40,544 nt of DNA from Bacteroidota bacterium (GTDB lineage Bacteria; Bacteroidota; Bacteroidia; Chitinophagales; Chitinophagaceae): assembly GCA_030706685.1 (NCBI GenBank), contig JAUZOA010000045.1, forward strand, positions 1 through 40,544. The letters run 5' to 3'. Shown here piece by piece: positions 8,641 to 28,422 of this stretch. Positions within the stretch are counted from its first letter, which is position 1. Each line of letters opens with the position of its first letter. The notes below the pieces were generated by a model. That model was not told where the DNA came from, did not search any database, and worked only from the letters and a program-made list of their open reading frames with translations. Made by a program: the position numbers and the translations under genes.

Positions 8641-8926
8641 CTGTATTATTCAGAATAAATGGGTTGTCCCGAAAAGTCGGAGAAGAAAAACTTTCCGCAA
8701 TGACGCAAGGAAAAAGAATTAGTAAGATAAATTCCAGGCGTTGCGTCTTAGCGCCGCTGTGAGATTTTTTCTGATTTTTTTGGACAGCTTTATGAAGGTT
8801 TAAAAGTATCAATAACCCAAACATAATTGGGTTTTGATCCCGAACCAGTAATGCCCCGTTTTTAACGCTCAATATCCTCTAAAGAACCACGGGCTTTTGA
8901 TTATTATCAATATTCAACCACCTAAC
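8641..8926 (+). other. Intergenic region with degenerate inverted repeats
   Basis: No gene is supported here. CGCAATGACGCAAGG (about 8697-8711) is an imperfect inverted copy of GCGTTGCGTCTTAGCGC (about 8738-8754), the 'gcgtctttgcg' kind of intergenic repeat familiar from many bacterial genomes. Further on, AACCCAA (8814-8820) and TTGGGTT (8827-8833) form a seven-base-pair hairpin with a short T tract, a weak terminator candidate for the preceding gene. The TAATATCC-type motif follows at 8870. Confidence 0.45.
8849..8886 (+). promoter_or_regulatory. Shared upstream motif (gene 3)
   Basis: CAATATCCTCTAAAGAAC starts at 8870, 57 bp before the chosen start codon. It matches the second motif copy upstream of the previous gene apart from a two-base deletion. 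A poorer half copy, TAATGCCCCG, lies 21 bp upstream at 8849. Confidence 0.45.
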
Positions 8927-11900
8927 ATGGCACAGAAGTTTTTCTATTCAAGTCGTATGAAACAAGTTTTTTTATTGTTTCTGTCACTTGCGTCATTTGG
9001 TTTTTCGTTTGCTCAAACCTCGATATTCCCATCAACATCTGTTCCGGCTATTGTTGCCGATAATGACGGGACGCCGATCGAACTGGGGCTTAAATTCCGT
9101 GTTACCACCGCAGGTTATATAACGGGCATTCGTTTTTATAAGGGCGCCGCCAACACAGGTACCCATATCGGTCATTTATGGAGCAGCACGGGTACCAAGC
9201 TGGGTGAAGCGACTTTTACCGGTGAAACAGCATCGGGCTGGCAACAAGTCTTATTTGCCACCCCGGTGGCTGTAGCCATTAATACAACTTATGTCGCCTC
9301 TTATTTCAGCAGCGCGGGCTATTATGCAGACAATACCCGCTATTTTACCACTGCTACGGTAAATGGCCCCCTTCGTGCGCTGGCAGACGGTGAGGATGGA
9401 GTCAATGGCGTATATATCTATACAACGGCATCTGCTTTTCCTGTTAATAGCTACCAGTCAAGTAATTACTGGGTAGATATTGTTTATGCTACCACGATTG
9501 GCCCTGATGTAACGCCACCGACGGTAACATCTGTGTCGCCGGTCAATAACGCTACAGGAGTAGCTGTCAGTAGTCCTGTTTCAGCCATTTTCAGTGAAGC
9601 GCTTACTGCTTCCACTGTAACTAATTCAACTTTTCAATTAAAAGATGCGGCTAATAATATTATTGCAGCAACTGTTACTTATAATGCCACTACTAATACA
9701 GCTACATTGACTCCATCGGCGGCCTTATCAAGCTCAACGGTCTATACTGCAACGATTACCGGGGGCACTTCGGGTGTGAAAGATCTTGCGGGCAATGCGC
9801 TGGCAAGCAACTTTACCTGGTCATTCACTACTGCTGATATTATTCCTCCAACAGTGTCGTCTGTTACGCCGCTCAATGGTGCAACCGGCGTGAGTGTCAG
9901 CACTGCCGTTTCCGCGATCTTCAGTGAAGCCATGACTGCTTCTACTATAAGCGGGACAACTTTTCAATTACGTAACGCTTCCAATACATTGATCACGGCT
10001 ACTGTTACTTATAATGCCACAACTAATACAGCTACATTGACTCCATCGGCAGCCTTGTCCAGTTCAACGGTTTATACGGCAACGATCACGGGAGGCGCTT
10101 CGGGTGTGAAAGATCTTGCGGGCAATGCGCTGGCAAGCAACTTTACCTGGTCATTCACTACGGCTGATATTATTCCCCCAACAGTATCATCCGTTTCACC
10201 TGTAAATGGCACTACCAACGTAAGCCCCACTACTGCTGTTTCAGCCATCTTCAGCGAAGCGATGACTGCATCCACGATAAGCGGCACTACATTCCAGTTG
10301 AAGGATGCATCTAATACATTAATTACAGCTACCGTTACCTATAACGCAGCTACCAATACAGCTACATTGACTCCATCGGCGTCGCTGGCCGGTTCAACTG
10401 TATACACTGCAACGATCACAGGAGGCGCATCGGGTGTAAAAGACCTTGCAGGCAATGCGTTGGTAAATAATTTTGTTTGGTCGTTTACTACGGGAGTTGT
10501 TGATCTTACACCTCCAACTGTTTCATCTGTTTCACCGGCGAATGGTGCAACAGGAGTAAGTCTCAGTACTACTGTTTCAGCGATCTTCAGTGAAGACATG
10601 ACCGCTTCTTCTATAAGCGGCACAACATTCCAATTGCGGGATGCTTCTAACACATTAATCACTGCTACTGTTACCTATAATGCTACCAGCAGGACAGCTA
10701 CGTTGACCCCATCGGCTGCGCTGGCAGGTTCAACGGTGTATACGGCAACGATCACAGGAGGCGCATCAGGCGTCAAAGATCTTGCAGGCAATGCATTGGT
10801 CAATAATTTTGTTTGGTCATTTACAACATTAACCCCGGATGTTACGCCTCCAACGGTATCATCTGTTACACCGGTTAGCGGCGCTACCGGCGTAAGTCTC
10901 AGCACTACTGTAACGGCCATCTTCAGTGAAGCGATAACCGCGTCTACGATAAGCGGTACTACTTTCCAATTGCGTAACGCAGCGAATACATTGATCACCG
11001 CCACAGTTACTTATAACGCGGCTACTAATACCGCCACTTTAACGCCATCGGCAGCATTGGTCAACTCAACTGTATATACGGCAACGATCACAGGAGGGGC
11101 ATCAGGCGTCAAAGACCTTGCAGGCAATGCAATGGTCAATAATTTTGTCTGGTCATTTACTACGCTTGCCGATGTGATACCTCCGACGGTTACATCTGTT
11201 TCCCCGCTGAGCGGGGCTACTGGCGTAAGTGTCAGTACGGCTGTTTCAGCGATTTTCAGCGAAGCGATGACTGCCTCTACCATAAGTGGAACAACATTCC
11301 AGTTGAAAAACGCATCCAATACATTAATAACAGCTACCGTTACTTATAACGCTGCTACCAATACAGCCACATTGACCCCATCGGCCGCGTTGGTCAATTC
11401 AACTGTATACACTGCAACCATTACAGGAGGCGCTTCAGGTGTGAAGGATGCGGCAGGTAATGCATTGGTCAATAATTTTACCTGGTCATTTACTACCGTC
11501 AGCGCCTCAGCGCCTACGTCTACCATATTCAAACTGACGGATGCCCCGACTACACCGCTCGATAATGATGGAGCCCCGATTGAGCTTGGCGTAAAATTCC
11601 GGACAACCCAGGCCGGGTTTATAACAGGTATTCGTTTTTATAAAGGAGCAGGTAATACCGGTACACATATAGGACATTTATGGAGCAGTACCGGAACAAA
11701 ACTTGGCGAAGCTACCTTTACGGGTGAAAGCGCTTCCGGCTGGCAGCAGGTATTATTCACTACACCTGTTCCTATTACAACCGGTGTTACTTATGTGGCT
11801 TCTTACTTTAGCCCCAATGGATATTATGGGTACACCAATCCTTATTTTACAACGGCGGTTACGAATGGCCCTTTGACTGCTTTGGCCAATGGACAAGACG

Positions 11901-14455: not shown

Positions 14456-14477
14456 ATACAATTCACGGGGTTAGTAT

Positions 14478-14506
14478 AAAAAAGCTCCCGCCCGGGGGCT
14501 TTTTTA
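14478..14506 (+). terminator. Rho-independent terminator
   Basis: AAAAAAGC, one bulged T, then CCCG pairs with the following GGGGGCTTTTTT around a short C-rich loop, 23 bases after the stop codon. The T run completes a standard intrinsic terminator. Confidence 0.8.
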
Positions 14507-14881
14507 TTTAAAAAATTTCGCCGAATTGATATAGATCAAACAATGGAGGACTGTAAAAATCATTTAAATAAAGCGGGAGCAGCCGGTGAGCAGTTTGGTT
14601 TTTTTGTTCCCAATCAGGGCCCTTCGCCGGCCTTTTTTTGAAAATATAATTAGGATAGCGTTGTCCGCAAATAAATTTTACCTAACTTCCCCTAATATCG
14701 GGCGAAAGCCTTTTTTTTAATATCCTCTGCTGAGATTCCTGTTTTTTAATATCCTTCTAAAGCACTTCATTTCCAGGTTGCCTTAAACGGGCATTGATTA
14801 TTTTTTGCTATCCATTCCAATGAACTACTTCCGGCGTCCCGGCATCCTATTTTTTTTTATATTAAAACCCCTGAATTCTTT
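14507..14881 (+). other. Intergenic region upstream of the third DUF4082 gene
   Basis: About 375 bp without a supported ORF. CGCCGGCC followed by seven T residues near 14628-14640 may be a second, weaker stop, but the pairing partner (CCGGTGA near 14584) is distant. TAATATCGGGCGAAAG near 14692 and two TAATATCC motifs follow. No clear promoter was seen. Confidence 0.4.
14718..14764 (+). promoter_or_regulatory. Shared upstream motif, two copies (gene 4)
   Basis: TAATATCCTCT at 14718 and TAATATCCTTCTAAAGCAC at 14747 lie 29 bp apart, repeating the two-copy arrangement upstream of the gene at 2905. The second copy is 135 bp before the start codon, further away than in the other two genes. Confidence 0.5.
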
Positions 14882-17800
14882 ATGGCAAAGAAATTCTTGT
14901 ATTCCGGCCAACTGAAGATAGCCTTATTTGTATTGATCTTATCGGCGTTTTTTACTTCGCCATTTTCTCCAAAAACCATTTTTTCTTCAACAAGTGTTCC
15001 CTCTATTCCCTTGTATGATGCCGGGATGCCGATTGAAGCAGGTGTTAAGTTCCGGGTGACGCAGGCAGGTTATATCACCGGTATTCGTTTTTATAAAGGA
15101 GCAGGTAATAGAGGAACTCATATTGGCCATTTATGGGGCAAGGACGGCACAAAGCTGGCGGAAGCAACTTTTACCGGTGAAACAGCCTCAGGATGGCAAC
15201 AGGTATCTTTTGCTGCACCAGTTGCTGTTGTTGCAGGCACTACTTATGTCGCTTCTTACTTCAGCAGCTCAGGTAATATTGCACTCAGTTATCACTATTT
15301 TACTTCGGCTGTTGCGAATGGCCCTATCCGGGCATTAGCGGATGGGGAAGAGGGAGGCAATGGCGTATACACTACTGCCGCGGCAACACCAGCTTTTCCA
15401 ACCAGTACGATCCCATCGGCTAATTTCTGGGTAGATGTTGTATTCAGAGCGGGTTCAGATGGAAGCGGCGATCTTACAGCTCCAACTATTGTATCTGTTT
15501 CGGCGGTAAACGGGGCGTCGAATGTAAATATCAATACGGCTCCATCAGCTAATTTTAATAAAGCAATGAATGCTTCCACTATCAACAACTCAACAATTGA
15601 ATTGCGAAATGCATCCAATAATGCAGTCATTGCTTCCACCATTACTTATAACACTGTCATCCATACTGCAACAGTAATGCCTTTGACGGCATTGGCTAAT
15701 TCAACCCAATACACTATCCGGGTCAAAGGTGGCTCATCCGGCGTCAAAGATGTGGCAGGGCTGGCTATGATAAAAGATTATGACTGGACATTTACCACGG
15801 CAGATCCGCCATTACTATCCCCGGCTGAAGGGCCCGGCGGCCCGATATTAGTGATCAGTACAAGCTCCAATCCGTTCAGTCGTTATACAACCGAAATATT
15901 GAGGGCAGAAGGATTGAATGAATTTGCTGCTGCCGATATTTCGGCTGTCACTGCAGCGGTATTGAATAACTATGACGTAGTGATATTGGGAGAAATGACA
16001 ATGACGGCAGGACAGGTTGCCCTGCTTACCAACTGGGTCAACGCCGGCGGTACATTGATTGCCTTTAAACCATCCTCATTATTGACACCGTTACTGGGAA
16101 TAGCCAACACCGGCGATGCGTTAAATGATAAATATTTATTGGTGAATACTTCAACAGAGGCTGGGGCCGGTATCGTCAACCAGACCATTCAATTCCATGG
16201 CTCAGCCAACCTGTACACATTGAAGGGGGCTACAAGTATTGCTTCACTTTACTCGGATGCCAATACCGCTACCAATTTTCCCGCCGTGACATCCCGGAAT
16301 GTTGGTACAAATGGCGGCAGGGCTGTTGCTTTTACGTATGATCTTGCAAAGTCAATAATCTATACAAGACAGGGGAACCCTGCATGGACGGGTCATAAAA
16401 GAGACCGGCAAAAAGATCCGATCCGTCCGGATGATCAATTCTTTCCTGATTGGATAGATTTTAATAAAATAGCCATTCCCCAGGCTGATGAGCAACAGAG
16501 ATTGTTGGCTAATATCATTTTGCAAAGCAATCTTCATCGCAAACCATTGCCAAGATTCTGGTACCTGCCAAGGGATCTGAAAGCAGTTATTGTGATGACC
16601 GGCGATGATCATAATAATAACGGAACAGAGGGTCGTTTCAACCACTACAAGACACTGGGACCTAATACAGCGCAAGATGTGACAGACTGGAGAGCTATAA
16701 GAGGTACCTCTTATATGTATCCCGGTACACCTATAACCAACGAGCAGGCAATGGCTTTTGAATCGGAAGGTTTTGAAATAGCCCTGCATCCAACCACGGG
16801 CTGTGTTGATTATACAGCGACATCATTGCGAAATGATTTTACTATACAACTTGGACAATTCACTTCCCGTTACCCGGGTCTTTCACATTCAGTTACCAGC
16901 AGGACCCATTGTTTAGCCTGGAGTGATTGGTCGTCCACACCCAAAATCGAATGGCAAAAAGGTATCCGCCTGGATCTGACCTATTATTACTGGCCGGAAG
17001 CCTGGATGCAGAATCATCCCGGTATGTTTACCGGTTCGGGAATGCCGATGCGATACGCCGACACGGATGGTTCGCTTATTGATGTTTACCAGGCGGCGAC
17101 GCAAATGACGGATGAAACAAATATGGATTATACATCTTTTTGTAATTCCCTGTTGGATAAAGCGCTTGGAGCTGAAGGGTATTACGGAGTTTTCACCGCC
17201 AATATGCATAATGATTTCAATCCAAGCCCCGGTTCTGATGCGATCATAGCAGCCGCGAAGGCAAGGCGGGTACCGGTAATATCAGCCAAACAATTGCTGA
17301 ACTGGCTGGAAGGAAGAAACAATTCTTCCTTCGGTCATATAATATGGAGCAATAATCATCTTAGTTTTACTGTGACAGCACGAACTGATGCCCCGAACCT
17401 GAAAGCCATGTTGCCGCTTTATTCCCAGGGAGGGCGCCTGGTATCCATTCAGCGGGATGACAACCCGGTTACCTTCACCACGCAAACGATCAAAGGGTTG
17501 CAGTATGCTTTCTTTGCGCCTGTAACAGGAACCAACACCTATATTGCAATCTACAGTAACAATGATGGAACTGTAACTCCCAGGTCAAAAGAAACAACGA
17601 CAGGAATAGTCAAAACAAGCGCAGGAGCGGGTTCAGGAAAAACTTTGCCGGTTTCAAAATTATTTGTCAATGTGATGCCCAATCCTGGTATTAATTATTT
17701 CAACCTGGTCATCAAAAGCAACGATGCGAACCCCGTGACGGTAATTGTAAAGGATCTGTTTGGACGGGTAATGGAAAAACATGAAAGGGTAAGCTCTGCA

Positions 17801-17902
17801 GGGATCCTGAGAGTGGGTGAGACCTGGACAGCAGGAACTTATTTTGCAGAAATAATCCAGGGCGATCAGAAAAAAGTGCTGAAACTTATTAAAGCGAATT
17901 AG
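14882..17902 (+). CDS. Secreted DUF4082 protein with amidotransferase-like and deacetylase-like module, T9SS tail
   Basis: This 1006-residue protein is a compact paralogue of the preceding gene: signal sequence (about 1-29), one DUF4082-like module (about 30-190), one SbsA-type Ig-like module (200-307), amidotransferase/ThuA-like fold (about 316-540; EILRAEGLNEF, NNYDVVILGE), deacetylase-like domain (about 559-810) and T9SS sorting domain (about 927-1006). The putative catalytic sites read VMTGDDHNNNG, GFEIALHPTTGC and SRTHCLAWSDW, so the acidic pair and two histidines seen in the paralogue are kept. It lacks the long Ig-like stalk, so the two proteins may put the same activity at different distances from the cell. 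The substrate is unknown. It ends with a strong terminator and is probably monocistronic. Confidence 0.85.
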   Translation: MAKKFLYSGQLKIALFVLILSAFFTSPFSPKTIFSSTSVPSIPLYDAGMPIEAGVKFRVTQAGYITGIRFYKGAGNRGTHIGHLWGKDGTKLAEATFTGETASGWQQVSFAAPVAVVAGTTYVASYFSSSGNIALSYHYFTSAVANGPIRALADGEEGGNGVYTTAAATPAFPTSTIPSANFWVDVVFRAGSDGSGDLTAPTIVSVSAVNGASNVNINTAPSANFNKAMNASTINNSTIELRNASNNAVIASTITYNTVIHTATVMPLTALANSTQYTIRVKGGSSGVKDVAGLAMIKDYDWTFTTADPPLLSPAEGPGGPILVISTSSNPFSRYTTEILRAEGLNEFAAADISAVTAAVLNNYDVVILGEMTMTAGQVALLTNWVNAGGTLIAFKPSSLLTPLLGIANTGDALNDKYLLVNTSTEAGAGIVNQTIQFHGSANLYTLKGATSIASLYSDANTATNFPAVTSRNVGTNGGRAVAFTYDLAKSIIYTRQGNPAWTGHKRDRQKDPIRPDDQFFPDWIDFNKIAIPQADEQQRLLANIILQSNLHRKPLPRFWYLPRDLKAVIVMTGDDHNNNGTEGRFNHYKTLGPNTAQDVTDWRAIRGTSYMYPGTPITNEQAMAFESEGFEIALHPTTGCVDYTATSLRNDFTIQLGQFTSRYPGLSHSVTSRTHCLAWSDWSSTPKIEWQKGIRLDLTYYYWPEAWMQNHPGMFTGSGMPMRYADTDGSLIDVYQAATQMTDETNMDYTSFCNSLLDKALGAEGYYGVFTANMHNDFNPSPGSDAIIAAAKARRVPVISAKQLLNWLEGRNNSSFGHIIWSNNHLSFTVTARTDAPNLKAMLPLYSQGGRLVSIQRDDNPVTFTTQTIKGLQYAFFAPVTGTNTYIAIYSNNDGTVTPRSKETTTGIVKTSAGAGSGKTLPVSKLFVNVMPNPGINYFNLVIKSNDANPVTVIVKDLFGRVMEKHERVSSAGILRVGETWTAGTYFAEIIQGDQKKVLKLIKAN

Positions 17903-17926: not shown

Positions 17927-17955
17927 AAGAAGCCTTCCGGAGGCTTCTTTTATTT
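17927..17955 (+). terminator. Rho-independent terminator
   Basis: AAGAAGCCT (17927-17935) and AGGCTTCTT (17941-17949) form a perfect nine-base-pair stem with a five-base loop, followed by a T-rich tail. On the other strand no T tail follows, so it mainly serves the + strand gene. Confidence 0.85.
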
Positions 17956-17974: not shown

Positions 17975-18376
17975 TCACAATTGTTGTATTACCTGCATGA
18001 TGTCATTTCTTCCCCAGTGATCAACATATTTCCCGTCTTTTAGCCTGACAATATCTATTACGTTCATGGTTACACTCTTTCCTGTAGCGGCATGTCCCAT
18101 GATTTCACCTGAGTGAACCGCATGGATTGTTTTACGGGTGGCTACCAGATCATTCTCCGCGATTTGTTCATGAATTTCTATATGCAAACCGGAAAACCCT
18201 TTATGAATCATATCCACGAATTGAATTAACCCGCTTACATCTTTCGGAAAATTGCCGGCGGCTGTATGGTTGGTGAAAGAATCGGCAACAATTTCTTTCA
18301 GCACTTCCTTATTCCCGGTTTCCAAAAACTCCCGGTTGAAACGAATCACTACTTTTTTGTTGTCTTCTGTTGTCAT
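17975..18376 (-). CDS. SnoaL-like ester cyclase family protein
   Basis: The ATG at 18376 gives 133 residues starting MTTEDNKK; an in-frame TTG at 18421 would add 15 residues and run to within six bases of the upstream gene, and is less likely. The sequence has the SnoaL/NTF2-like look of one small alpha+beta barrel (NHTAAGNFPKDVSGLIQF, IHEQIAENDLVATRKTIHA, IVRLKDGKYVDHWGRND). Proteins of this family include polyketide cyclases and many uncharacterised small enzymes; substrate cannot be read from sequence. It is the last gene of the - strand catabolic operon, about 50 bases after the fused hydrolase-dehydrogenase, and may be co-transcribed with it, though its link to that pathway is unclear. 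Confidence 0.75.
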   Translation of the reverse strand: MTTEDNKKVVIRFNREFLETGNKEVLKEIVADSFTNHTAAGNFPKDVSGLIQFVDMIHKGFSGLHIEIHEQIAENDLVATRKTIHAVHSGEIMGHAATGKSVTMNVIDIVRLKDGKYVDHWGRNDIMQVIQQL

Positions 18377-18427
18377 ATTTATCAGGTAAAAAATATTATT
18401 GAATTTCAGCACAGGGATCAAAACTGG

Positions 18428-20509
18428 CTAAGCTTTCAAATGATATCCCTTTGGTTTTACAAAGGCACGCAGACCGGCATGGGAGAGGGTTATGCCAAAG
18501 CCTGAATGTTTTCTTCCGCTCCAGGGTAATGCGGCGCTGACCCTGTCGCAGCAATTCCAGTAACCGGTTCCTGCATTTATTTGTTGTAAAATAGCCTCAG
18601 CTCTTTTTTTATCCGAGCTGTAAACGGAAGCGGTTAAACCATATTCTGTGTCCTCCATAAGTTGTATCGCTTCTTTATCATTTTTGACTTTCATGATACC
18701 GATAACCGGCCCGAAAGATTCATCTTTCATCACACTCATGGTATGATTCACATTCACCAGCACTGTTGGTTCAAAAAAATACCCTTTACTATTTATCTTC
18801 TTTCCCCCCGTAAGAATAGTGGCTCCTTTGCTTTTGGCATCCTCCACCTGCTTTTCCAAAACAGCCAATTGATCCTTCCTGCTGAGCGGTCCAATATAGG
18901 TTCCTTCTTCCGTCGGTGACCCGATTTTCCAGGATCTTACTTCTTTCACAAACTCATCAATATACCTGTCATATACTTTTTCATGAACATAAATTCTTTC
19001 GACAGCGCAGCAACTTTGCCCGTTATTATAAAAAGCGCCATCGGCCGTACCGGCTGCTACTGCTTTTATGTCTTTTATATCGTCCGCGACATAAAGGGGA
19101 TCCTTACCACCCAGTTCGCACTGGCAGGGAACCATTTTCGGCGCTATTTTTTCATAAATGTATTGGCCGGTTTTGTAAGACCCGGTGAAATAATAGCCAT
19201 CAAAAGGAAGCTCAAGCAATAACTCTCCTGTATCTTTTGCGCCAATGGCAACCTGGAAAATATCGCCGGGGATGCCGGCCTGCTTTAATAATTTTTCAAT
19301 GTCCAGCCCGGTCAACACAGCATATTCAGAAGGCTTATACATAACCGCGTTACCGGCCAGCAGCGCCGGCACAAAGACATTCACACCCACGAGATAAGGG
19401 TAGTTCCAGGCTGATATATTGCAAATGACACCAAGCGGCTCATAGGAAATTTTTTCTTCCATGCCATTACTGCTGCTCATCGTTTCATCGGATAAATATT
19501 TCTCCGCGTTATCCGTCAGCCATTTTATTCTTGCCCTGGCCCCGTTTATTTCATTCCGGGATTGTTGCAACGGTTTCCCTACTTCCGAAGTAAGTGTTGA
19601 AGCAAGTCGTTCAATGTTTTCTTCCAGCAGCAAAGAGAATTTTTTTATTATCTCTGTTCTTTCCCGCAAGGATTTCTTTTGCCAGCCTGGTTGTGCTGCT
19701 CTTAATAAACTTATTTTTTTTTGCAGGCTGTCCTTATTGTCTTCATTTAAATTCGCTATTACTTCCCCGGTAGCCGGGTTGATGACAGGAAGTTTTTTCA
19801 TGGTTGTTTCCCTGGCGGATGACAGGAATTGTCTTTTAAGGTTTTCAGAAAAGGGATTGTGCTCTTTGTTTTTCATCCTTTCCGGGTGCCATTGCACGCA
19901 GAGCATAAAAGCTTTGCCGGTCTTATCTTTGAATTCAAGACCTTCAATGATCCTTTCATCGTCATCGTCATAGGCATTTGGCTGCAGGTTCTCGCCGATG
20001 CCCGCCGGATCGATAGCCTGGTGATGTGCGCTGTTTACATGGCCTGAAGAAGAACCGGCAACCTTGTAAAGTAATGTATCGTTACCGGCAACGATCGTAT
20101 GCTCCTTGTCGGCTTCTTCTTTGCGATGTCGCTCATTGCCGCTGTCAAGATCCTGTATCAACTTGCCCCCCTGTAATACATTTATTAATTGCATTCCCCG
20201 GCATATTCCAAGCACGGGGAGAAGGTTTAATTGCGAATACCTGTAAATTTTTTCTTCAAAATAATCCCGGTCCGGCTCAAACGAATGAGGGCTGTTTTCA
20301 TAACCGGTTCCCCCGTTATAGAATGAAGGATGAATATCAATACCCCCTGTAAGAACAAAACCGTCACATTGATAAATATCAGTGGTATTGTTTTTCTCAA
20401 AGGAGAGTTCGAGCAGTTCAAGATCATCCTGCAGGTCCTGCGGCGTGAACCAATTCCAGTAATTTTGAAACAAGGTTTTGGTAAAGCTGATACCGATTCT
20501 CTTCTTCAT
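18428..20509 (-). CDS. Fused gamma-glutamyl hydrolase (peptidase C26) and aldehyde dehydrogenase
   Basis: One uninterrupted 693-residue frame carries two enzymes. Residues 1-230 are a class I glutamine amidotransferase-type hydrolase of the C26/PuuD family, with nucleophile Cys103 in GICRG and His208/Glu210 in QWHPE. Residues 237-693 are a full-length aldehyde dehydrogenase (PuuC/GabD-like): Asn369 in SAWNYP, Lys392 in YKPSE, the GSYKTG cofactor loop, Glu465 in CELGGKD and catalytic Cys500 in NNGQSC. In known gamma-glutamyl-amine pathways these are separate proteins acting in successive steps (aldehyde to acid, then hydrolysis to free glutamate). Met237 begins MKKLPVINPATGE, exactly where a stand-alone dehydrogenase would start, so the fusion may have arisen by loss of a stop codon, and internal initiation is possible. 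It follows the alcohol dehydrogenase gene by three bases. Confidence 0.9.
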   Translation of the reverse strand: MKKRIGISFTKTLFQNYWNWFTPQDLQDDLELLELSFEKNNTTDIYQCDGFVLTGGIDIHPSFYNGGTGYENSPHSFEPDRDYFEEKIYRYSQLNLLPVLGICRGMQLINVLQGGKLIQDLDSGNERHRKEEADKEHTIVAGNDTLLYKVAGSSSGHVNSAHHQAIDPAGIGENLQPNAYDDDDERIIEGLEFKDKTGKAFMLCVQWHPERMKNKEHNPFSENLKRQFLSSARETTMKKLPVINPATGEVIANLNEDNKDSLQKKISLLRAAQPGWQKKSLRERTEIIKKFSLLLEENIERLASTLTSEVGKPLQQSRNEINGARARIKWLTDNAEKYLSDETMSSSNGMEEKISYEPLGVICNISAWNYPYLVGVNVFVPALLAGNAVMYKPSEYAVLTGLDIEKLLKQAGIPGDIFQVAIGAKDTGELLLELPFDGYYFTGSYKTGQYIYEKIAPKMVPCQCELGGKDPLYVADDIKDIKAVAAGTADGAFYNNGQSCCAVERIYVHEKVYDRYIDEFVKEVRSWKIGSPTEEGTYIGPLSRKDQLAVLEKQVEDAKSKGATILTGGKKINSKGYFFEPTVLVNVNHTMSVMKDESFGPVIGIMKVKNDKEAIQLMEDTEYGLTASVYSSDKKRAEAILQQINAGTGYWNCCDRVSAALPWSGRKHSGFGITLSHAGLRAFVKPKGYHLKA

Positions 20510-20512
20510 GGT

Positions 20513-21661
20513 CTATAGGGCTTTACTGTACAAATTTCTGAAATCTTCCCGGCTTACCGGTTTGGGATTATTGGGATGCGCGAAATCAGCAATGGCCAAA
20601 TCAGCCAATGGCTCAATATGTTCCTGTTTTACACCAATATCCTTTAGCTTATGGGGTATATTAATTTTTGAATTCAGATCAAACAGGTAGTTGACTACCG
20701 ATTGCCCGGTTTCTTCTTTCAATTCCAGCGTTCGGGCTATTCGCCTGAACTTGTCTTCAGCTCCGGCGATATTAAACTCCATACCGTAAGGAATATTGAC
20801 GGCATTGGCCAATCCATGATGTGTGTCCAATAAAGAAGACAGGGGATGCGCCAGGGAATGTACCACTCCCAAACCTTTTTGAAAAGCGACTGCTCCCATC
20901 AATGAAGCGATCAGCATTTTACTTCTTGCATCGGGATCGGGTTTATTCACTGCTTTCTCTAACGACTGGTTGATTAATGAAATGCCTTCGAGGGCAATTC
21001 CCTCACATAATGGATGGGGCATTTTGGCGAGATAGGCTTCCATGTTATGTGTCAACGCGTCCATACCGGTAGCAGCAGTAATAAAGGGAGGAAGGTCCAT
21101 GGTCAGTAAAGGATCAGCGAAAACAATTTTGGCCAATAGTTTTGGTGAAAAAAGAATTTTCTTCTGGTGAGTTTCATCATCCGCAATGATAGCGCTGCGG
21201 CCTACTTCGCTCCCTGTACCGGCTGTAGTAGGGATGGTGATGAAGTGCGGGACATCCCGGGTGATATAAATATCGCCGCCGATAAGATCATCGTATTTGA
21301 AAAGGTCTTCCCGGTGATTAATTCTTAACACGATCGCTCTTGCCACATCGAGAGCAGCGCCTCCCCCGATACCTATTATCGAATCCCTTTTTGAAGCATC
21401 ATATACATCCGTGCCCTTATAGACGTCTGACTTTACCGGGTTTTTATGTATACCGGAAAAAACTTCCGTTGAAATATTTTTTTTGCTGAGATCAGTAATG
21501 ATTATTTTGAAAAAATCAAGTTGCGAAACGGTTCCATCAGTAACAATCAAAGGTTTGGATAAATTATTTTTTACCAGGTAATCGCCCAGTTCTTTACTGG
21601 AGCCGGCTCCAAAACGGATGGTGGTGGGGAAATTATATTGATAGACTTTGTCGAAGGTCAT
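20513..21661 (-). CDS. Iron-containing alcohol dehydrogenase
   Basis: A 382-residue group III (Fe-type) NAD(P)-dependent alcohol dehydrogenase of normal length. The nucleotide-binding GIGGGAALD is present, as are the expected metal ligands: Asp and His in TGMDALTHNMEAY, His in VVHSLAHPL and His in DTHHGLANA. GTGSEVG is the usual substrate-side motif. It lies between the gamma-glutamyl ligase gene (55 bases upstream) and the fused hydrolase-aldehyde dehydrogenase (3 bases downstream). This position suits oxidation of the hydroxyl group of a gamma-glutamylated amino-alcohol to its aldehyde. That substrate is inference from context; the family also includes butanol, lactaldehyde and methanol dehydrogenases. 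Confidence 0.9.
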   Translation of the reverse strand: MTFDKVYQYNFPTTIRFGAGSSKELGDYLVKNNLSKPLIVTDGTVSQLDFFKIIITDLSKKNISTEVFSGIHKNPVKSDVYKGTDVYDASKRDSIIGIGGGAALDVARAIVLRINHREDLFKYDDLIGGDIYITRDVPHFITIPTTAGTGSEVGRSAIIADDETHQKKILFSPKLLAKIVFADPLLTMDLPPFITAATGMDALTHNMEAYLAKMPHPLCEGIALEGISLINQSLEKAVNKPDPDARSKMLIASLMGAVAFQKGLGVVHSLAHPLSSLLDTHHGLANAVNIPYGMEFNIAGAEDKFRRIARTLELKEETGQSVVNYLFDLNSKINIPHKLKDIGVKQEHIEPLADLAIADFAHPNNPKPVSREDFRNLYSKAL

Positions 21662-21715
21662 TTTGTTTGATATTGTTTATTCCGTTAAACCCTTAAACGA
21701 ACATATCATACCGGC

Positions 21716-23074
21716 CTAAATAATTTCAAAATAACGCTTATACTCCCAATCCGTCACCGCTTTCAAATGCTGCCTCCATTCCCATTCTCTTGTTTGCGTA
21801 AAATGTTCAACAAATGCAGCGCCGAATAGTTCTTTGGCTACTTTCGAATCCTTCATCTGTTGGGTCGCTTCCATCAATGTAGAAGGTAAAACGCCATGGG
21901 AATAATTCTTATAACCGTTACCGGCTGTAGCCGGTTGCTTTAATTTCAATTTATTTTTTATTCCGTATAAACCCGCGGCGAGACAACCGGCCATCGCGAG
22001 GTAAGGATTCACGTCGGAACCGACAACCCTTGTCTCCAACCTGCATGATTTACTACTGCCCGCTAAAATACGCAATGCTACTGTCCGGTTATCCATTCCC
22101 CATGTCAGCGTAGTAGGAGCCCAGGCGCCTTCTACCAGTCTTTTATAACTGTTAATGACAGGAGCGAATAGTGGAAGGATATGCGGTAAACAATATAACT
22201 GCCCGGCTACATAACTTTTCATCAGGTCACTCATCTTTCCTTTATCTTTTTCATCATAAAAAAGATTTTTCTTTCCTGCCTTATCCCATAAACTCTGGTG
22301 AACATGACCGCCGCAACCGGGAAGATTCTCATTGATCTTTGCCATGAAAGTAGCCAGGATGCCATGTTTGTAAGCGATCTCTTTGACGGCTGTTTTAAAT
22401 AGAACAGCCCTGTCGGCTGCTTCTGTAATGCCGGCATAAACAATGGCCGCCTCGTAAGTGCCGGGTCCTGTTTCCGTATGCAAACCTTCCAGGGGCACAT
22501 TGAATTTCTTCAATAATTCAAAAAGATCGGAGAAATATGCATTTTCCAAAGAACTGCGAAGAATAGAGTAACCAAACATGCCGGGAGTAAGCGGCGTTAA
22601 ATTTTTAAACTGTTTTTCATTAGCGCTGATTGGCGTTTCGGCAAAATTGTACCATTCAAACTCCTGGGAAAACAGGGCAGAGTAGCCTAGTTGATGGGCT
22701 TCATTCCTTACTTTCTTCAATAATTGTCTTGGGCAAACAGTTGATGGGTTCCCTTTTTCATCAGTCAGTTCACCGAGAAAGAAAGGCAAATCATTTTCCC
22801 AGGGAATTTGCCGGAATGTATTTATATCCAGCACGGCAGGAGCATCCGGGTAACCGGTATGCCAGCCGGTGAATTGTACATTATCATAGGTTACATCTCC
22901 CGCATCCCACCCGAATATCACATCACAGAAACCCAGGCCATTTTCGATCACCGAAAGAAATTTCTCCGCCGAGATATATTTTCCCCGCAGTACCCCGTCA
23001 ATATCCGTGAAGGCGATCTTTACCTTTTGTGAAGGGTGATCTTTAACGTGCTGGATAATTTCTTTGGTATTCAT
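21716..23074 (-). CDS. Glutamine synthetase-like gamma-glutamyl-amine ligase
   Basis: The ATG at 23074 (MNTKEIIQHVK) gives 452 residues; the frame extends 28 codons further upstream into an intergenic repeat and is unlikely to be translated there. Glutamine synthetase landmarks are present: FTDIDGVLRGKYIS near the N-terminus, the QEFEWYNF glutamate cluster, GPGTYEAAI, GCGGHVHQSLW and NSYKRLVEGAWAP...WGMDNR. The DG..RGK start is typical of the PuuA/GlnA3/GlnA4 branch, which ligates glutamate to amines rather than ammonia. With an ethanolamine-type permease next to it and an alcohol dehydrogenase after it, gamma-glutamylethanolamide synthesis is the best guess; putrescine or another amine is the alternative. 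ATP-dependent and cytosolic by family knowledge. Confidence 0.85.
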   Translation of the reverse strand: MNTKEIIQHVKDHPSQKVKIAFTDIDGVLRGKYISAEKFLSVIENGLGFCDVIFGWDAGDVTYDNVQFTGWHTGYPDAPAVLDINTFRQIPWENDLPFFLGELTDEKGNPSTVCPRQLLKKVRNEAHQLGYSALFSQEFEWYNFAETPISANEKQFKNLTPLTPGMFGYSILRSSLENAYFSDLFELLKKFNVPLEGLHTETGPGTYEAAIVYAGITEAADRAVLFKTAVKEIAYKHGILATFMAKINENLPGCGGHVHQSLWDKAGKKNLFYDEKDKGKMSDLMKSYVAGQLYCLPHILPLFAPVINSYKRLVEGAWAPTTLTWGMDNRTVALRILAGSSKSCRLETRVVGSDVNPYLAMAGCLAAGLYGIKNKLKLKQPATAGNGYKNYSHGVLPSTLMEATQQMKDSKVAKELFGAAFVEHFTQTREWEWRQHLKAVTDWEYKRYFEII

Positions 23075-23097
23075 ATTGATACTTTGAATCTGTATTT

Positions 23098-23158
23098 CTT
23101 TATGTCCTTCGTGCTCCTTATAAGTAACACAAAGATCACGAAGAACCACAAAGGGCAC
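23098..23158. repeat. Intercistronic imperfect inverted repeat
   Basis: CTTTATGTCCTTCGTGCTCC (23098-23117) faces a region on the other arm that reads CTTTGTGGTTCTTCGTG on the opposite strand (about 23136-23153). It belongs to the 'cttcgtg/ctttgtg' class of degenerate intergenic repeats seen in many genomes. It lies between the permease and ligase genes of one operon and could form a hairpin in the transcript. Confidence 0.65.
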
Positions 23159-23185
23159 AATGATTTTAAGCCTATAAAATACTAA

Positions 23186-24499
23186 TTATTTGGCGGGTTT
23201 TATTTTAAAAAATTTAAAACAGGCATAGCATATACCCAGTAATAAAAAATAAACCAGCGCCAGTTCCTTATTATAGATCGTCATGACAACAAAGGAAAAG
23301 ACACCTATACATAATGCTGTCAACGGGAAAAGGGGGTACACCGGCACTTTAAAGGGCCGTTCCAGCAAGGGTTCTTTTTTCCGCAGCCGCAACAGCGCGA
23401 TCATCGATACAATATATAAGGTAAGCGCCCCGAATACGGAAATAATGATGATCTCGTCGGTCCTTCCTGTCAGCAGGGCAATGATGCCGATCCCCATATT
23501 TACCAATAATGCGTTGGAAGGAGTTTGAAACCGGGGATGAATCTTCCCCAGGAATTCCGGGGCAAACTTTACTCTTCCGAATTCAAAACTCGATCTTCCT
23601 GCCGCCAGTATGATGCCATGAAAGGAAGCTACCAGTCCAAACAGCCCGATCGTGATCAGCAGGTGATAAAGCAAATGGTTGCTGCCTACAATATGACCCA
23701 AAGCCAATGGAAGCGGGGAGTCGGAAGTATTGCCATCAGGTTTGTATACGATCGCTTCCCAGCCGGCTACGCCCACCGAACTGGCAAAAGTGAGTATACA
23801 GAGAATAACGAGTGTAAGAATAGCCGAGCCAAAACCGAGAAACATGGCCCTTCTTGGATTGATCGCTTCTTCGGCTACATTGGCCACACCTTCGATGGCG
23901 AGGAAGAACCAGATAGCGAAAGGGGTGGCAGCAAAAGCTCCCTGCCAGCCATTCGGGAAAGCATTATGCCGGAGGTTCTTCCATTCAAAATGCGGTAAGG
24001 AAACGCCGGCAAATAATAATAGTTCTCCGACAGCAAGAATAGTAATGGCTAACTCAAACAGGGCTGCCGCCTTCACACCATAAATATTCAATGCGGTAAA
24101 GACAATATAACTAAAGACAGCGATCGCGAGTACCGGTATTTGCGGAAAGAATAAATTAAAATAAGCGCCGATGGCGAATGCAATGGCGGGTGGCGCGAAA
24201 ATGAATTCGATATTTTGCGCCATGCCGGCGATGAATCCCCAGTCTATTCCCAATGCCCGGTTCGCATAATCGAATCCGCCGCCGGCCTTAGGTATCGCGC
24301 AAGCCAGTTCGGTATAACTAAAAGTAAACGTAACATACAGGATGATGATGAAGAAAGTGGCAATAGCCAGTCCCAGTGTTCCTCCTTCTTTCAATCCGAG
24401 ATTCCAGCCAAAATACATGCCCGAGATCACATAGCCTACTCCAAGGCCCCAGAGCATAATAGGGGTGAGTGTTCGTTTGAGTTCGTTGGGTGCTGGCAA
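23186..24499 (-). CDS. APC-family amino acid permease, ethanolamine permease-like
   Basis: A 437-residue integral membrane transporter with about 12 hydrophobic segments. The start is a TTG at 24499; an in-frame stop lies shortly upstream with no ATG between, and the resulting N-terminus (MPAPNELKRTLTP) is the right length before the first helix. The first helix region VGYVISGMYFGWNLGL, followed by KEGGTLG, matches the ethanolamine permease branch of the APC superfamily better than general amino acid permeases; GGGFDYANRALG and EGVANVAEEAINPRRA are further family signatures. It is the first gene of the catabolic operon, and the region upstream (24500-24730) should hold the promoter. The substrate is inferred; related carriers import other small amines or amino acids. 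Confidence 0.85.
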   Translation of the reverse strand: MPAPNELKRTLTPIMLWGLGVGYVISGMYFGWNLGLKEGGTLGLAIATFFIIILYVTFTFSYTELACAIPKAGGGFDYANRALGIDWGFIAGMAQNIEFIFAPPAIAFAIGAYFNLFFPQIPVLAIAVFSYIVFTALNIYGVKAAALFELAITILAVGELLLFAGVSLPHFEWKNLRHNAFPNGWQGAFAATPFAIWFFLAIEGVANVAEEAINPRRAMFLGFGSAILTLVILCILTFASSVGVAGWEAIVYKPDGNTSDSPLPLALGHIVGSNHLLYHLLITIGLFGLVASFHGIILAAGRSSFEFGRVKFAPEFLGKIHPRFQTPSNALLVNMGIGIIALLTGRTDEIIIISVFGALTLYIVSMIALLRLRKKEPLLERPFKVPVYPLFPLTALCIGVFSFVVMTIYNKELALVYFLLLGICYACFKFFKIKPAK

Positions 24500-24730: not shown

Positions 24731-25840
24731 TCACACCCCCGCCAAAAACTGCCCATTAATATATTCCACTACTTTCGTCAAACTCTTTGTCTGTGTAAAT
24801 ACTGCTAATTGCCTGTCAGCGCCCGTGCCCTGTTCCAGCATTTTATGTACATAACCCAAACGGTGGCGGCTGCCAAGATCATCTACCACATCATCTACAA
24901 AATCCAATAGTTCATAGATCAGCACTCTTGTGTTCACCTCTTCTTCCTTACCAAAATCTATCAGGTGGCCATCGATACCATAACGGCTGGCCCGCCATTT
25001 ATTTTCATTCAGCAAAGGGCGGGAATACTGGATGAAGTTCATGTTCTGTGAACGGAGTTTATAGATCTTGGCGCATACCGCCTGGAATAAAGCGGCGATA
25101 GCGATCGTTTCATCCACCGTCATCGGTACATCGCAGATACGGAATTCAACTGTATTAAAGAAAGGATGCACCCGCAGATCCCACCATATCTTTTTAGCAT
25201 TGTCAATACAATTGGTCTTGATCAGCAGTTTGACAAAATTGTCATAGGCTTCAATGCTGTCAAAAGCATCGGGAATACCCGTACGGGGGAATTTATCAAA
25301 TACTTTGGTGCGGAAAGATTTATAGCCCGTTGATCTTCCTTCCCAGAAAGGGGAGTTGGTGCTCAACGCATAAATATGAGGAAGAAAATACCGTGTTGAG
25401 TTGGCGATATGATTGGCCATCTCGCGGGTCTGCATGCCCACATGCACATGCAGGCCAAAGATCAGGTTGCTTCGGGCCGCTTCCTGCAGTTCATTCACGA
25501 TTTCGTTATAACGGGCATGATCGGTGATCAACTGGCTTTCCCAGTGACTGAAAGGATGGGTACCGGACGCGCCCATAGCAAAACCCAGATCTCCTGCTAT
25601 CCCTGCGATGGTCCGGCGAAGGATGGACACATCTTTATGGGCTTCCTCTATATCCTGGCAGATATCGGTGCCTACTTCCACAACAGCCTGGTGCATTTCC
25701 GCCTTTACTTTATCCTTAATCACTTTCTGGCCTTCGTGAACGATCTTCTGTTCATGACTTTTCAGTTCATAGGTCTTTGGATCCAATACCATATATTCCT
25801 CTTCCACGCCGAGAGTAAAACTTTTGTAATTAAGATTCAT
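24731..25840 (-). CDS. YbdK-like carboxylate-amine ligase (GCS2 family)
   Basis: A 369-residue protein of the glutamate-cysteine ligase type 2 family, about the length of E. coli YbdK. The family hallmark LGVEEEYMVLDP is near the N-terminus, followed by EVGTDICQ, GLHVHVGM and STRYFLPHIYALSTNSPFW. These enzymes use ATP to join an amine to a glutamate gamma-carboxyl; YbdK itself has only weak glutamate-cysteine ligase activity and the true substrate of most members is unknown. It is the last gene of a three-gene operon with an ATP-grasp ligase and a Uma2-family protein, starting six bases after the latter stops. A role in making a small gamma-glutamyl peptide or amide is a reasonable inference, as is glutathione-like thiol synthesis. 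Confidence 0.85.
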   Translation of the reverse strand: MNLNYKSFTLGVEEEYMVLDPKTYELKSHEQKIVHEGQKVIKDKVKAEMHQAVVEVGTDICQDIEEAHKDVSILRRTIAGIAGDLGFAMGASGTHPFSHWESQLITDHARYNEIVNELQEAARSNLIFGLHVHVGMQTREMANHIANSTRYFLPHIYALSTNSPFWEGRSTGYKSFRTKVFDKFPRTGIPDAFDSIEAYDNFVKLLIKTNCIDNAKKIWWDLRVHPFFNTVEFRICDVPMTVDETIAIAALFQAVCAKIYKLRSQNMNFIQYSRPLLNENKWRASRYGIDGHLIDFGKEEEVNTRVLIYELLDFVDDVVDDLGSRHRLGYVHKMLEQGTGADRQLAVFTQTKSLTKVVEYINGQFLAGV

Positions 25841-25845
25841 AGCAG

Positions 25846-26463
25846 TTATTTGGTAAACATTTCTTCCGTATCAATTATAAGCCCCGGAATGGCTTTACTT
25901 TCAATTTTTTCTTTACCGGCATACATTCTTCCACCCGAAAACTTTCCGTCTTCATCTAATATAAATACAACGAGATTTTCTTCCACCGGGTTTACAACCC
26001 AATATTCTCTCACCCCGGCTTCTTCATAAAGCTCAAATTTCAACTTGACTTCTTTGTGAGAGTTGCCGGGAGATAAAATTTCAACAACGAAGTCTGGCGC
26101 ACCACAGCAACCCTTATCATCAATCTTCGATTCATCACAGATGACACAAATATCAGGTTGAACTACTGTTGTTACTTCATTGTCTTTTTTCCTGTTTTTT
26201 ACAGGTAATCGTACATCAAAGGGGGCTATAAACGGTTTACACTTCTTTTTTTTCAGGAATATTACAATTTCAGCTCCTAAATTTCTAACAACCTCCTGGT
26301 GTTTCGTATTAGGCGCTGAAAGTTTAAATATTTTTCCCCGGAAAAGCTCCAACCTTTCCTCAAAATTCCATCTTAAATAATCGGCATAGGTGTAGATAAG
26401 CGAAGGATCTGGTTCCTCCACTTTGGAATATTCATCGTTTTCTGTATCGTAAACCGTAAACAT
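25846..26463 (-). CDS. Uma2 family (DUF820) putative endonuclease
   Basis: This 205-residue protein shows the Uma2/DUF820 pattern of a PD-(D/E)XK nuclease fold: LRWNFEERLELFRGKIFKLS, QPDICVICD, GAPDFVVEILSPGN and ELYEEAGVREYWVV, with the aspartates and glutamate as likely metal ligands. The start codon overlaps the stop of the ATP-grasp gene in the arrangement TAATG, so translation is probably coupled. Uma2 proteins are multiplied in cyanobacteria and scattered in Bacteroidota, and their role is unknown. Finding one locked inside a ligase operon is odd; it may be a passenger or may have a non-nuclease function. Confidence 0.85.
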   Translation of the reverse strand: MFTVYDTENDEYSKVEEPDPSLIYTYADYLRWNFEERLELFRGKIFKLSAPNTKHQEVVRNLGAEIVIFLKKKKCKPFIAPFDVRLPVKNRKKDNEVTTVVQPDICVICDESKIDDKGCCGAPDFVVEILSPGNSHKEVKLKFELYEEAGVREYWVVNPVEENLVVFILDEDGKFSGGRMYAGKEKIESKAIPGLIIDTEEMFTK

Positions 26464-27413
26464 TATACTAAAGGCATTTTAGTTCCGCTTCTTTTCAGGT
26501 ATTCGCCCCAGGTCAGGTTATCACCTCCATTACTGGTCAATGCTTTTTCAATCGCATAGCTGGCCGCCGTCTCCACCACCCATTCAAAATTATCTTGTCC
26601 CACACTGGCTTTTTCCGCGTCCGGCGCCGGGTTGCAGAAATCAATCGCATAGGGAACGCCATCCCGGATGGCCAGTTCAACCGTATTGAAATCATATCCC
26701 AGGTATTTATTAATGGCAAGTACGATATCCGTCATTAATTGGTGTCGTTCCGGCGAGGGAGAAAAATCAGCGACATAACGAAGATGATGCGGGTTGCGGG
26801 GCTCATAAGGCATGATGCGCACATATTTGCCGCCGATGCAATAGCAGCGATAGTATTCTTCAAATACGATCTCTTCCTGGAGCAGCATCACTAATTGGCC
26901 GGTCTCGCTATGCTTCTGGAAAAATTCCTCAGCGGTATTCAATTTATATACATTTTTCCAGCCACCGCCGGCAAAGGGTTTCATATACGCAGGAAAACCT
27001 ACATAATTAAACATGCCGTCCCAGTCCAAAGGAAAAGCGAGATTGCTGAATGATTCATCGGTGGTATCAGCCGGCAGATCCCTGGAAGGAAGTATGACGG
27101 TTTTGGGAACAGGTACTCCCACTTTTGTCATCAGGCAATTATTGAAATATTTATCATCAGCGCTCCACCAGAATGGGTTATTGATCACTGCCGTTCCCGT
27201 CAGCGCAGCATTTTTCAGCCAGGTACGGTAGAATGGCACATCCTGCGATATACGGTCAATGATGACGGTAAAGCCGCAGGGCTCACCCTGTATCGCCTTA
27301 TCAATCTTCACCGGTTCTGCTACGATGCCCGGTACATTCTTACTGTTTACTCTTGCCATGAAGGCTTCAGGAAACGAGCGTTCCTTCCCGTGCAGAATTC
27401 CAATTTTTTTCAT
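26463..27413 (-). CDS. ATP-grasp domain ligase (glutathione synthetase/RimK-type)
   Basis: The ATG at 27413 (MKKIGILHGKERSFPEAF) gives 316 residues; the frame runs 20 codons further upstream without support. ATP-grasp features are visible: FPAYMKPFAGGGWKNV for nucleotide binding, LLQEEIVFEEYYRCYCIGG, and the metal-binding tail TVELAIRDGVPYAIDFCNP. Such enzymes join a carboxylate to an amine through an acyl phosphate. The gene leads a coupled operon with the Uma2 and GCS2 genes, and a divergent esterase lies across the 27-bp inverted repeat. Two ligases plus a hydrolase suggest synthesis and turnover of a small peptide-like or amide metabolite, but the product cannot be named. Confidence 0.85.
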   Translation of the reverse strand: MKKIGILHGKERSFPEAFMARVNSKNVPGIVAEPVKIDKAIQGEPCGFTVIIDRISQDVPFYRTWLKNAALTGTAVINNPFWWSADDKYFNNCLMTKVGVPVPKTVILPSRDLPADTTDESFSNLAFPLDWDGMFNYVGFPAYMKPFAGGGWKNVYKLNTAEEFFQKHSETGQLVMLLQEEIVFEEYYRCYCIGGKYVRIMPYEPRNPHHLRYVADFSPSPERHQLMTDIVLAINKYLGYDFNTVELAIRDGVPYAIDFCNPAPDAEKASVGQDNFEWVVETAASYAIEKALTSNGGDNLTWGEYLKRSGTKMPLV

Positions 27414-27515
27414 AAAAAAGTATTTTATTGATTTGAATGAGCCGGGCAGGGCAACGGGAACCGGCTTTACCAAATTTATTTTTTCAAGGCCATATAAACA
27501 AATTAACTATTGGGG

Positions 27516-27609: not shown

Positions 27610-28422
27610 ATGCAATCGGTAAATGTATCGGGTATCCTGGTCGAAAATACCCATGTCAGATCTGAATACTTACACAGGGAAGTGAAGGTTGATTTTTTTC
27701 TCCCTAAAAATGTCATCAACCCGTCCGATATGAGCCTGCTGCTGATCAATGATGGCCAGGACATGGAAGTACTTGGGCTTGAATCCATACTTACACAACT
27801 TTATGCACAAAACGCGATCCAGCCATTATTGTGTGCTGCCATCCATGCCAATAAGGATAGAAAAAAAGAATATGGGGTAGCAGGTCATCCTGATTACCTG
27901 GGCAGGGGGGCCAGGGCAGGACTTTATACTTCGTTCATCATGGATGAGCTGGTTCCTTTTATCAGGGAAAACTATGCGGTCAATTCCTTTCGTGAAAAAG
28001 CGTTTGCCGGATTTTCCCTGGGCGGATTGATGGCGCTGGATATTGTTTGGAACCATCCCGGTGAATTCCGGAAAGCCGGTATCTTTTCCGGTTCTCTCTG
28101 GTGGCGCAGTATTGATCAGTCAGAAGATGATTATGATGATGATAAGCACCGCATCATGCAACAGCAGATAAGAAAAGGATTCTTTCACCCGGGATTAAAA
28201 TTCTTTTTCCAATGCGGCAATATGGACGAAAAAAAAGACCGTAATAATAACGGTATCATAGATTCTATTGACGATACGCTTGATCTCATAAAAGAACTTT
28301 CAAAGAAAGGATATAGCCGTGAAAAAGATATTCATTATTTGGAATTGCCGGATGGCAGGCACGATGTTCCTACCTGGGGCAGGGCTATGCCGGAGTTTTT
28401 GAGATGGGGATGGGGAGTGTGA
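27610..28422 (+). CDS. Fes/esterase-D-like alpha/beta hydrolase
   Basis: A 270-residue member of the enterochelin esterase/antigen 85-type esterase family (PF00756-like). The nucleophile is Ser136 in GFSLGG, the likely catalytic His is His251 in PDGRHDVPTWG, and an acid may come from the FQCGNMDEKKD region. No signal peptide is apparent, so it is probably cytosolic. Residues 210-222 (DRNNNGIIDSIDD) form an EF-hand/dockerin-like calcium loop pattern, unusual in this family. It is divergent from the ATP-grasp/Uma2/GCS2 operon, and a hydrolytic role linked to the product of those ligases is possible but unproven. It ends in a short TGAGTTGTGAGTTGG tract related to the repeats in the suf operon. 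Confidence 0.85.
   Translation: MQSVNVSGILVENTHVRSEYLHREVKVDFFLPKNVINPSDMSLLLINDGQDMEVLGLESILTQLYAQNAIQPLLCAAIHANKDRKKEYGVAGHPDYLGRGARAGLYTSFIMDELVPFIRENYAVNSFREKAFAGFSLGGLMALDIVWNHPGEFRKAGIFSGSLWWRSIDQSEDDYDDDKHRIMQQQIRKGFFHPGLKFFFQCGNMDEKKDRNNNGIIDSIDDTLDLIKELSKKGYSREKDIHYLELPDGRHDVPTWGRAMPEFLRWGWGV

Follow-up and report, generated by a model that had tools for sequence, protein, structure and literature searches.

Phosphatidylethanolamine, an abundant lipid, is a source of free ethanolamine. A catabolic route in which the amine is first coupled to glutamate has been described in several bacteria, and the account given here follows excerpts of the cited papers. According to PMC10132767, which extends the route to marine Alphaproteobacteria, Chromohalobacter salexigens and Agrobacterium are the organisms in which it had been demonstrated (its reference 32). 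In Phaeobacter sp. MED193, proteomics showed several proteins of the operon to be up on phosphorylethanolamine, and the binding protein of the operon binds ethanolamine with a Kd of 7.9 uM (PMC10132767). The C. salexigens route is made of PF00120, PF00465, PF00171 and PF05013 proteins (PMC9397018). In Streptomyces coelicolor, GlnA4 was shown to be a gamma-glutamylethanolamide synthetase, the later steps being proposed (PMC6529630). The wider ligase family has been named GoaS (PMC11335346). A related chemistry is found in the Ipu pathway of Paenarthrobacter aurescens TC1, which degrades isopropylamine via gamma-glutamyl-L-alaninol and in which the hydrolase is said to act ahead of alcohol oxidation (PMC6776027). 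Here, we describe an operon carried by a 40,544-nucleotide stretch (contig JAUZOA010000045.1 of assembly GCA_030706685.1; hereafter the window) from a Bacteroidota bacterium of the Chitinophagaceae. This operon very probably serves ethanolamine catabolism by gamma-glutamylation. A first-pass annotation had compared it to the scheme proposed in Streptomyces. The route is more than a Streptomyces proposal. Because it has already been published for Chromohalobacter, Phaeobacter and Streptomyces, the operon of the window is a variant, with a separate ligase lineage, an Eat permease instead of a TRAP transporter and a fused C26 hydrolase instead of a PF05013 protein. In the titles and abstract starts of the open-access literature, no gamma-glutamylation route was found for Bacteroidota.

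All genes of the block are on the minus strand. In the order of transcription, they encode an APC permease of the Eat type (predicted ethanolamine importer, 23186..24499, TTG start), a glutamine synthetase-like amine ligase (predicted gamma-glutamylethanolamide synthetase, 21716..23074, PF00120 at 321 bits), an iron-type alcohol dehydrogenase (Fe-ADH; predicted gamma-glutamylethanolamide dehydrogenase, 20513..21661, PF00465/PF25137) and a fusion of a C26 hydrolase with an aldehyde dehydrogenase (ALDH; 18428..20509), followed by a SnoaL-like gene. From the coordinates, the successive gaps are about 111, 54, 3 and 51 bases. The fusion is a single open reading frame (ORF) of 693 residues, with PF07722 at residues 45-210 and PF00171 at residues 236-687. 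Its C26 domain (predicted gamma-glutamylglycine hydrolase, 19826..20509) carries the motifs GICRG and QWHPE, as seen when it is aligned with PuuD and with three C26 hydrolases from ligase loci. The ALDH domain (predicted gamma-glutamyl-aminoacetaldehyde dehydrogenase, 18431..19801) is assigned from its phmmer scores against the ALDHs of ligase operons. Thus, the five co-directional genes initially announced are indeed on one strand and of the announced protein types, but they are four genes, since the hydrolase and the ALDH share one ORF; the SnoaL-like gene, although inside the same interval, had been omitted. A variant of the ligase ORF starting with GTG extends to 23158. As homologues mostly align only from residue 23-30 onward, the start is placed near the ATG at 23074.

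A glutamine synthetase-family amine ligase, an alcohol dehydrogenase, an aldehyde dehydrogenase and a gamma-glutamyl hydrolase are therefore encoded together. In the proposed mechanism, ethanolamine would be imported by the Eat-type permease and joined to the gamma-carboxyl of glutamate by the ligase, with use of ATP. The Fe-ADH would convert gamma-glutamylethanolamide into the aldehyde, which the ALDH domain would oxidize to gamma-glutamylglycine, and hydrolysis of the latter by the fused C26 domain would then release glutamate and glycine. Such a hydrolysis would recycle glutamate and leave glycine open to glycine cleavage; the P protein of the glycine cleavage system (GDC-P) is present in the host. 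From the observed gene content, gene order, fusion, conservation, co-occurrence and motif residues, we infer each substrate, each reaction, whether oxidation precedes deglutamylation and what advantage the fusion might bring. The scheme is the one put forward in the first-pass annotation and is the best explanation found for this gene context.

The four predicted reactions are those of the Phaeobacter sp. MED193 and C. salexigens operon (ETAGA, GETADH, GAADDH, GGAH and EtoVWX), with which the window shares the PF00120 ligase, the PF00465 alcohol dehydrogenase and the PF00171 ALDH, according to the same excerpts (PMC10132767; PMC9397018). The differences lie in the hydrolase and in the transporter, PF05013 and the TRAP system EtoVWX in one case, C26 fused to ALDH and an APC Eat permease in the other, as well as in the ligase, which belongs to another clade. 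Since neither PF05013 nor TRAP is found, the operon is classified as a variant rather than as a subtype of the Chromohalobacter/Phaeobacter one. Furthermore, the RpiR regulator that is part of the Phaeobacter operon was not found among the nine window proteins scanned. A Ruegeria stretch (L110) used as a reference contains RpiR, N-formylglutamate amidohydrolase, TRAP genes, ligase, ALDH and Fe-ADH. Its ligase, 33% identical to that of the window, matches PDB 5dm3, which we take to be the Chromohalobacter enzyme, at 801 bits. The gene order in Ruegeria is that of Phaeobacter MED193 as given in the excerpt of PMC10132767. In the Streptomyces coelicolor GlnA4 cluster, a gamma-glutamylethanolamide synthetase, an ALDH and an amidotransferase gene are likewise found, with a permease in other Streptomyces (PMC6529630, in excerpt), but a short-chain dehydrogenase (SDR) stands where the window has an Fe-ADH. 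Judged from an Embleya locus standing in for S. coelicolor, in which permease, C26, ALDH and SDR genes surround the ligase, the cluster also differs by a PuuC-like ALDH and by a ligase that the tree places on the ETAGA side. In Thermomicrobium, the ligase is adjacent to an SDR-type gene annotated as glucose 1-dehydrogenase and to an annotated ethanolamine permease. The Aminobacter ligase operon borders on bhcRABC, genes with an annotation for the catabolism of glyoxylate.

The permease carries much of the substrate assignment. As first proposed, it is of the ethanolamine type, reaching 437.8 bits against TIGR00908 for a curated cutoff of 381.75. The same cutoff is passed by eight of nine further permeases from ligase- or EutB-linked loci, the ninth, from Rhizobium (L119), being of another APC type. 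Among 59 related genomes, 19 carry the permease, of which 13 have a window-type ligase, one (G036) an ETAGA-type ligase and five EutB. EutB is found in none of the 40 genomes without the permease; two of these (G013, G027) have a ligase of a divergent class only, with other neighbours, and a ligase that the tree assigns to this class also accompanies EutB in G019 (L017). In all five EutB loci, a permease 45-49% identical to that of the window adjoins EutB, the second-best permease match in these genomes being at most 65 bits; for one of these loci, EutB and EutC were confirmed by Pfam. These Eat-EutBC loci thus have the same permease family, with ethanolamine ammonia-lyase in place of gamma-glutamylation. 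In a sample of 148 genomes of the phylum, six have the permease; it accompanies a window-type ligase in four of them and an ETAGA-type ligase in G119, and it stands beside EutB in G154. Two gene swaps deserve mention. In G036, the permease (74% identical to that of the window) is followed by an ETAGA-type ligase (identity of 45% with the Ruegeria and 48% with the Thermomicrobium enzyme), an SDR and an ALDH. In G119, a single block contains an ETAGA-type ligase, SDR, ALDH, GATase and the permease (70%). G174 and G195 have ligase and SDR of the same types without a window-type permease. One type of permease, Eat, is thus found with the window-type, the ETAGA-type and the EutB enzymes, three sets that are each tied to ethanolamine.

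The host itself has no EutB match in a genome listed as 100% complete (226 contigs), and none was found in its six congeners, of which one has a completeness of only 64%. The eut ammonia-lyase pathway is therefore rejected for the host, and the view that the route dispenses with this enzyme is upheld.

The ligase contains the DG..RGK motif (FTDIDGVLRGKYIS) already recognized in the first inspection. The glutamate of the GYEAP motif of E. coli GlnA, which we take to be part of the ammonium site of type I glutamine synthetases, is replaced by tryptophan (GAWAP). At this position, tryptophan is also found in IpuC and in the Legionella-type ligases, phenylalanine in the Ruegeria and Embleya GlnA4-like proteins and tyrosine in PuuA. 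AWAP occurs in 75 of 80 Bacteroidota ligase matches, the pattern having failed to parse the other five. In the second of three trees, the Bacteroidota ligases form one clade (100/98), sister to a Legionella/Photobacterium/Paracoccus/Rhizobium clade (joined at 100/99), and in the best trees IpuC stands next to this assembly (92/78, 83/76 and 76/66 in the first, second and third trees). The window ligase falls in neither the PuuA nor the ETAGA/GlnA4-type clade in the first and second trees, so that its initial description as PuuA/GlnA4-like was too specific. In approximately unbiased (AU) tests with the third tree, neither a grouping with the ETAGA/GlnA4-type rows (p-AU 0.163, YJN5 row left out) nor one with PuuA (p-AU 0.272) was rejected; hence, the placement of the ligase by itself does not give the substrate. 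The ligases of G036, G119, G174 and G195 are placed in one clade with the Thermomicrobium, Ruegeria, Rhizobium, Aminobacter and Paracoccus TOH enzymes (95/94, second tree). In the first tree, the L018 row had been read in an incorrect frame or on the incorrect strand (14 stops) and three further rows had one stop each, the latter stops being removed for the later trees. Of the 42 Bacteroidota locus rows in the first tree, 18 were kept in the second and third besides the window, and these two trees did without L018, Strep637, Azosp, Shinella, Tsuk, Rhodoc, GlnT_Nostoc and L020. GlnA4 is represented by the Embleya locus, and the plasmid reference loci were chosen by hand (20 of 60 listed rows, of 169 records).

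Members of the sister clade are found in uncharacterised ligase-ALDH-FeADH-GATase operons of Legionella lytica and Photobacterium. Their ligases are 43-44% identical to that of the window, and their Fe-ADH and ALDH resemble those of the Ruegeria operon (52% and 55% in Legionella, 48% and 49% in Photobacterium). Unlike the window, they show no Eat-like permease in the fetched stretches and have unfused ALDH and GATase; the Legionella GATase domain has no C26 match.

Both dehydrogenases have higher scores against enzymes of ETAGA-type operons than against PuuC, FucO or EutG. The Fe-ADH scores 260-276 bits against the Fe-ADHs of four ETAGA-type operons and 278 against that of Legionella, versus 191 for FucO, 177 for EutG and 61 for the other Fe-ADH of the host. 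With phmmer, the ALDH domain scores 296-316 bits against six ligase-operon ALDHs, four of them of the ETAGA type, and 211 against PuuC. Among PDB entries, the fusion matches an aminoaldehyde dehydrogenase best (265).

Conservation was studied on loci collected by scanning genome contigs with the window ligase (best 80 of 109 confirmed loci). All record titles are from Bacteroidota, except that of L052, titled Beijerinckiaceae, which is probably a mislabelled bin (ligase 72% identical). The permease is present in 66 of the 80 loci, Fe-ADH in 70, ALDH in 65 and an above-threshold C26 match in 61. Permease, ligase, ADH and ALDH occur together in 56 loci, with the order and strand of the window in 55 of these and a C26 match in 52; some of the remaining 24 loci are cut by the contig end or the fetched stretch, others are genuinely different. 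The genes are real, they form a conserved block and their arrangement is not due to chance.

The hydrolase and the ALDH are fused in 15 of the 80 loci and separate in 45, whereas C26 is absent with ALDH present in five and 15 are incomplete; the fusion is seen in G010 too. The Cys-Arg-Gly at the nucleophile is kept in all 60 fused or separate C26 sequences (51 by pattern, nine read individually) and the QWHPE-type motif in 59. On a quick ligase tree (63 rows, 14 fused), the fused state requires at least five changes, or four with starred branches alone, which indicates that the fusion was gained or lost repeatedly. In L023, near kin of the window scored as separate, C26 and ALDH overlap in different frames, which may reflect a frameshift. 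The in-frame ATG at 19801 may be a former ALDH start. It may then be imagined that, in the host, a predicted bifunctional polypeptide would run the last two steps, from gamma-glutamyl-aminoacetaldehyde to glycine and glutamate, with a separate Bacteroidota lineage of gamma-glutamylethanolamide synthetase, distinct from ETAGA/GlnA4, beside the same Eat permease; we give this more detailed picture an even chance. No C26-ALDH fusion was found in titles and abstract starts of the open-access literature, among the matches listed.

Several observations weigh against an ethanolamine pathway. The ligase is not of the ETAGA/GlnA4-type clade and its nearest characterised relative is the isopropylamine enzyme IpuC, with a weakly supported deep order. 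The best NCBIfam match of the ADH is 4-hydroxybutyrate dehydrogenase (327 bits, cutoff 500), followed by a match to lactaldehyde reductase (283, cutoff 523), and that of the ALDH is succinic semialdehyde dehydrogenase (377, cutoff 521), all under cutoff. C26 is absent in five of 65 ALDH-holding loci; G055 has permease and ligase with no ADH within the 19 kb examined, and in G042 ligase and permease sit on separate contigs. Moreover, the relatives do not count as independent observations, since seven of the 19 permease holders belong to one genus; the Fisher value of 7e-16 ignores kinship and is not used as a probability. Finally, EutB does not imply the permease, since only one of the four EutB genomes of the phylum sample holds it.

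The same chemistry could act on another small amino-alcohol, L-alaninol or 3-aminopropanol, to give alanine or beta-alanine, ethanolamine being a mere side substrate. The position of the ligase next to IpuC (83/76), whose pathway passes through gamma-glutamyl-L-alaninol, points in this direction, as does the C26 domain, closest to the Ipu cluster hydrolase among five compared (90 bits) and sharing its C26 type. The Ipu pathway itself differs from the window by a P450, a ferredoxin, a reductase and an SDR. Against this alternative, the IpuC grouping is weak (76/66 in the third tree), and the same permease family stands beside EutB in every EutB locus of the relatives and with ETAGA-type ligases in two genomes. 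An amino-alcohol other than ethanolamine is therefore considered improbable.

Degradation of putrescine or aminobutanol in the manner of Puu appears very improbable. The ligase superfamily, the ALDH and the C26 hydrolase are common to PuuA, PuuC and PuuD, and the AU test tolerates the PuuA grouping, but the ligase reaches only 210 bits of the 650 required by NF045547 (GGputSyn), no PuuB-like oxidase is found among the genes of the block, the window domains score 211 bits with PuuC and 24 with PuuD, and the permease passes the ethanolamine model. The dedicated alcohol dehydrogenase, invoked from the outset against putrescine, also disfavours it. Hardly more credible is an auxiliary, ammonia-using glutamine synthetase within a cluster that is not one pathway. 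The ligase does have the Gln-synt_C fold, with 236 bits against TIGR00653 (type I GlnA), yet the cutoff is 429, tryptophan replaces the GYEAP glutamate presumed to serve the ammonium site, the host has two further PF00120 matches on another contig and the operon is conserved. Gamma-glutamylation of ethanolamine thus remains the favoured assignment. If it is correct, Chitinophagaceae, Sphingobacteriaceae and related Bacteroidota use ethanolamine without ammonia-lyase or microcompartment, and many genes annotated as glutamine synthetase, Fe-ADH or aldehyde dehydrogenase in such genomes gain a specific, testable role. The gene swaps, with one transporter type beside three enzyme sets, offer a useful natural control for substrate assignment.

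Some features of the related loci may be added. In L045, L048, L049, L072 and L084, ligase, ADH and ALDH are present with no C26 within the fetched stretch; the hydrolase would differ or be encoded elsewhere. L043 has a fusion 78% and an ADH 88% identical to those of the window and a ligase grouping with Pedobacter and Chitinophaga rows, possibly a mosaic operon or a mixed bin. In L141 (4847-5729), two small ORFs, one RES-domain-like by eye, separate ligase and SDR and look like an inserted toxin-antitoxin pair. Two of the three EutB loci without permease in the phylum sample show shell-protein-like genes by eye. A further set of ligases, class ii (L154-L159, L133, L147, L097, L098), is 53-64% identical to that of the window and adjoins a conserved protein of about 350 residues (kinase-like by eye; one scanned, no Pfam match) and a HAD hydrolase, with no permease and no dehydrogenases. 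Ligases in this identity range without an adjacent window-type permease occur in 15 of the 148 genomes of the phylum sample, 14 of which belong to a single family, and the class-ii neighbourhood was matched in all six of the 15 that were examined.

Around the operon, the SnoaL-like gene (minus strand, PF07366) lies in an ORF at 17975-18421 with a likely ATG start at 18376. It was dropped as a pathway member, the threshold being reached in none of the 80 related loci. Past this last gene, between convergent genes, a hairpin read by eye on the minus strand (AAGAAGCCT-ccgga-AGGCTTCTT, 17927..17949) is a possible terminator. Upstream of the operon, a YbdK-type carboxylate-amine ligase, Uma2, a RimK-like ATP-grasp protein and an esterase are encoded at 24731-27473 (minus strand) and 27610-28422 (plus strand). 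This block was also dropped from the pathway, YbdK, ATP-grasp and esterase occurring in three and Uma2 in four of the 80 loci. It also precedes the operon in L023, L026 and L027, and YbdK and ATP-grasp are also near the EutB locus of G035 (L129). On the other side, the plus strand at 8897-17902 encodes two large, similar, secreted-looking proteins in tandem, the first with repeated Ig-like units of the kind 'TVSSVSPANGATGVS'.

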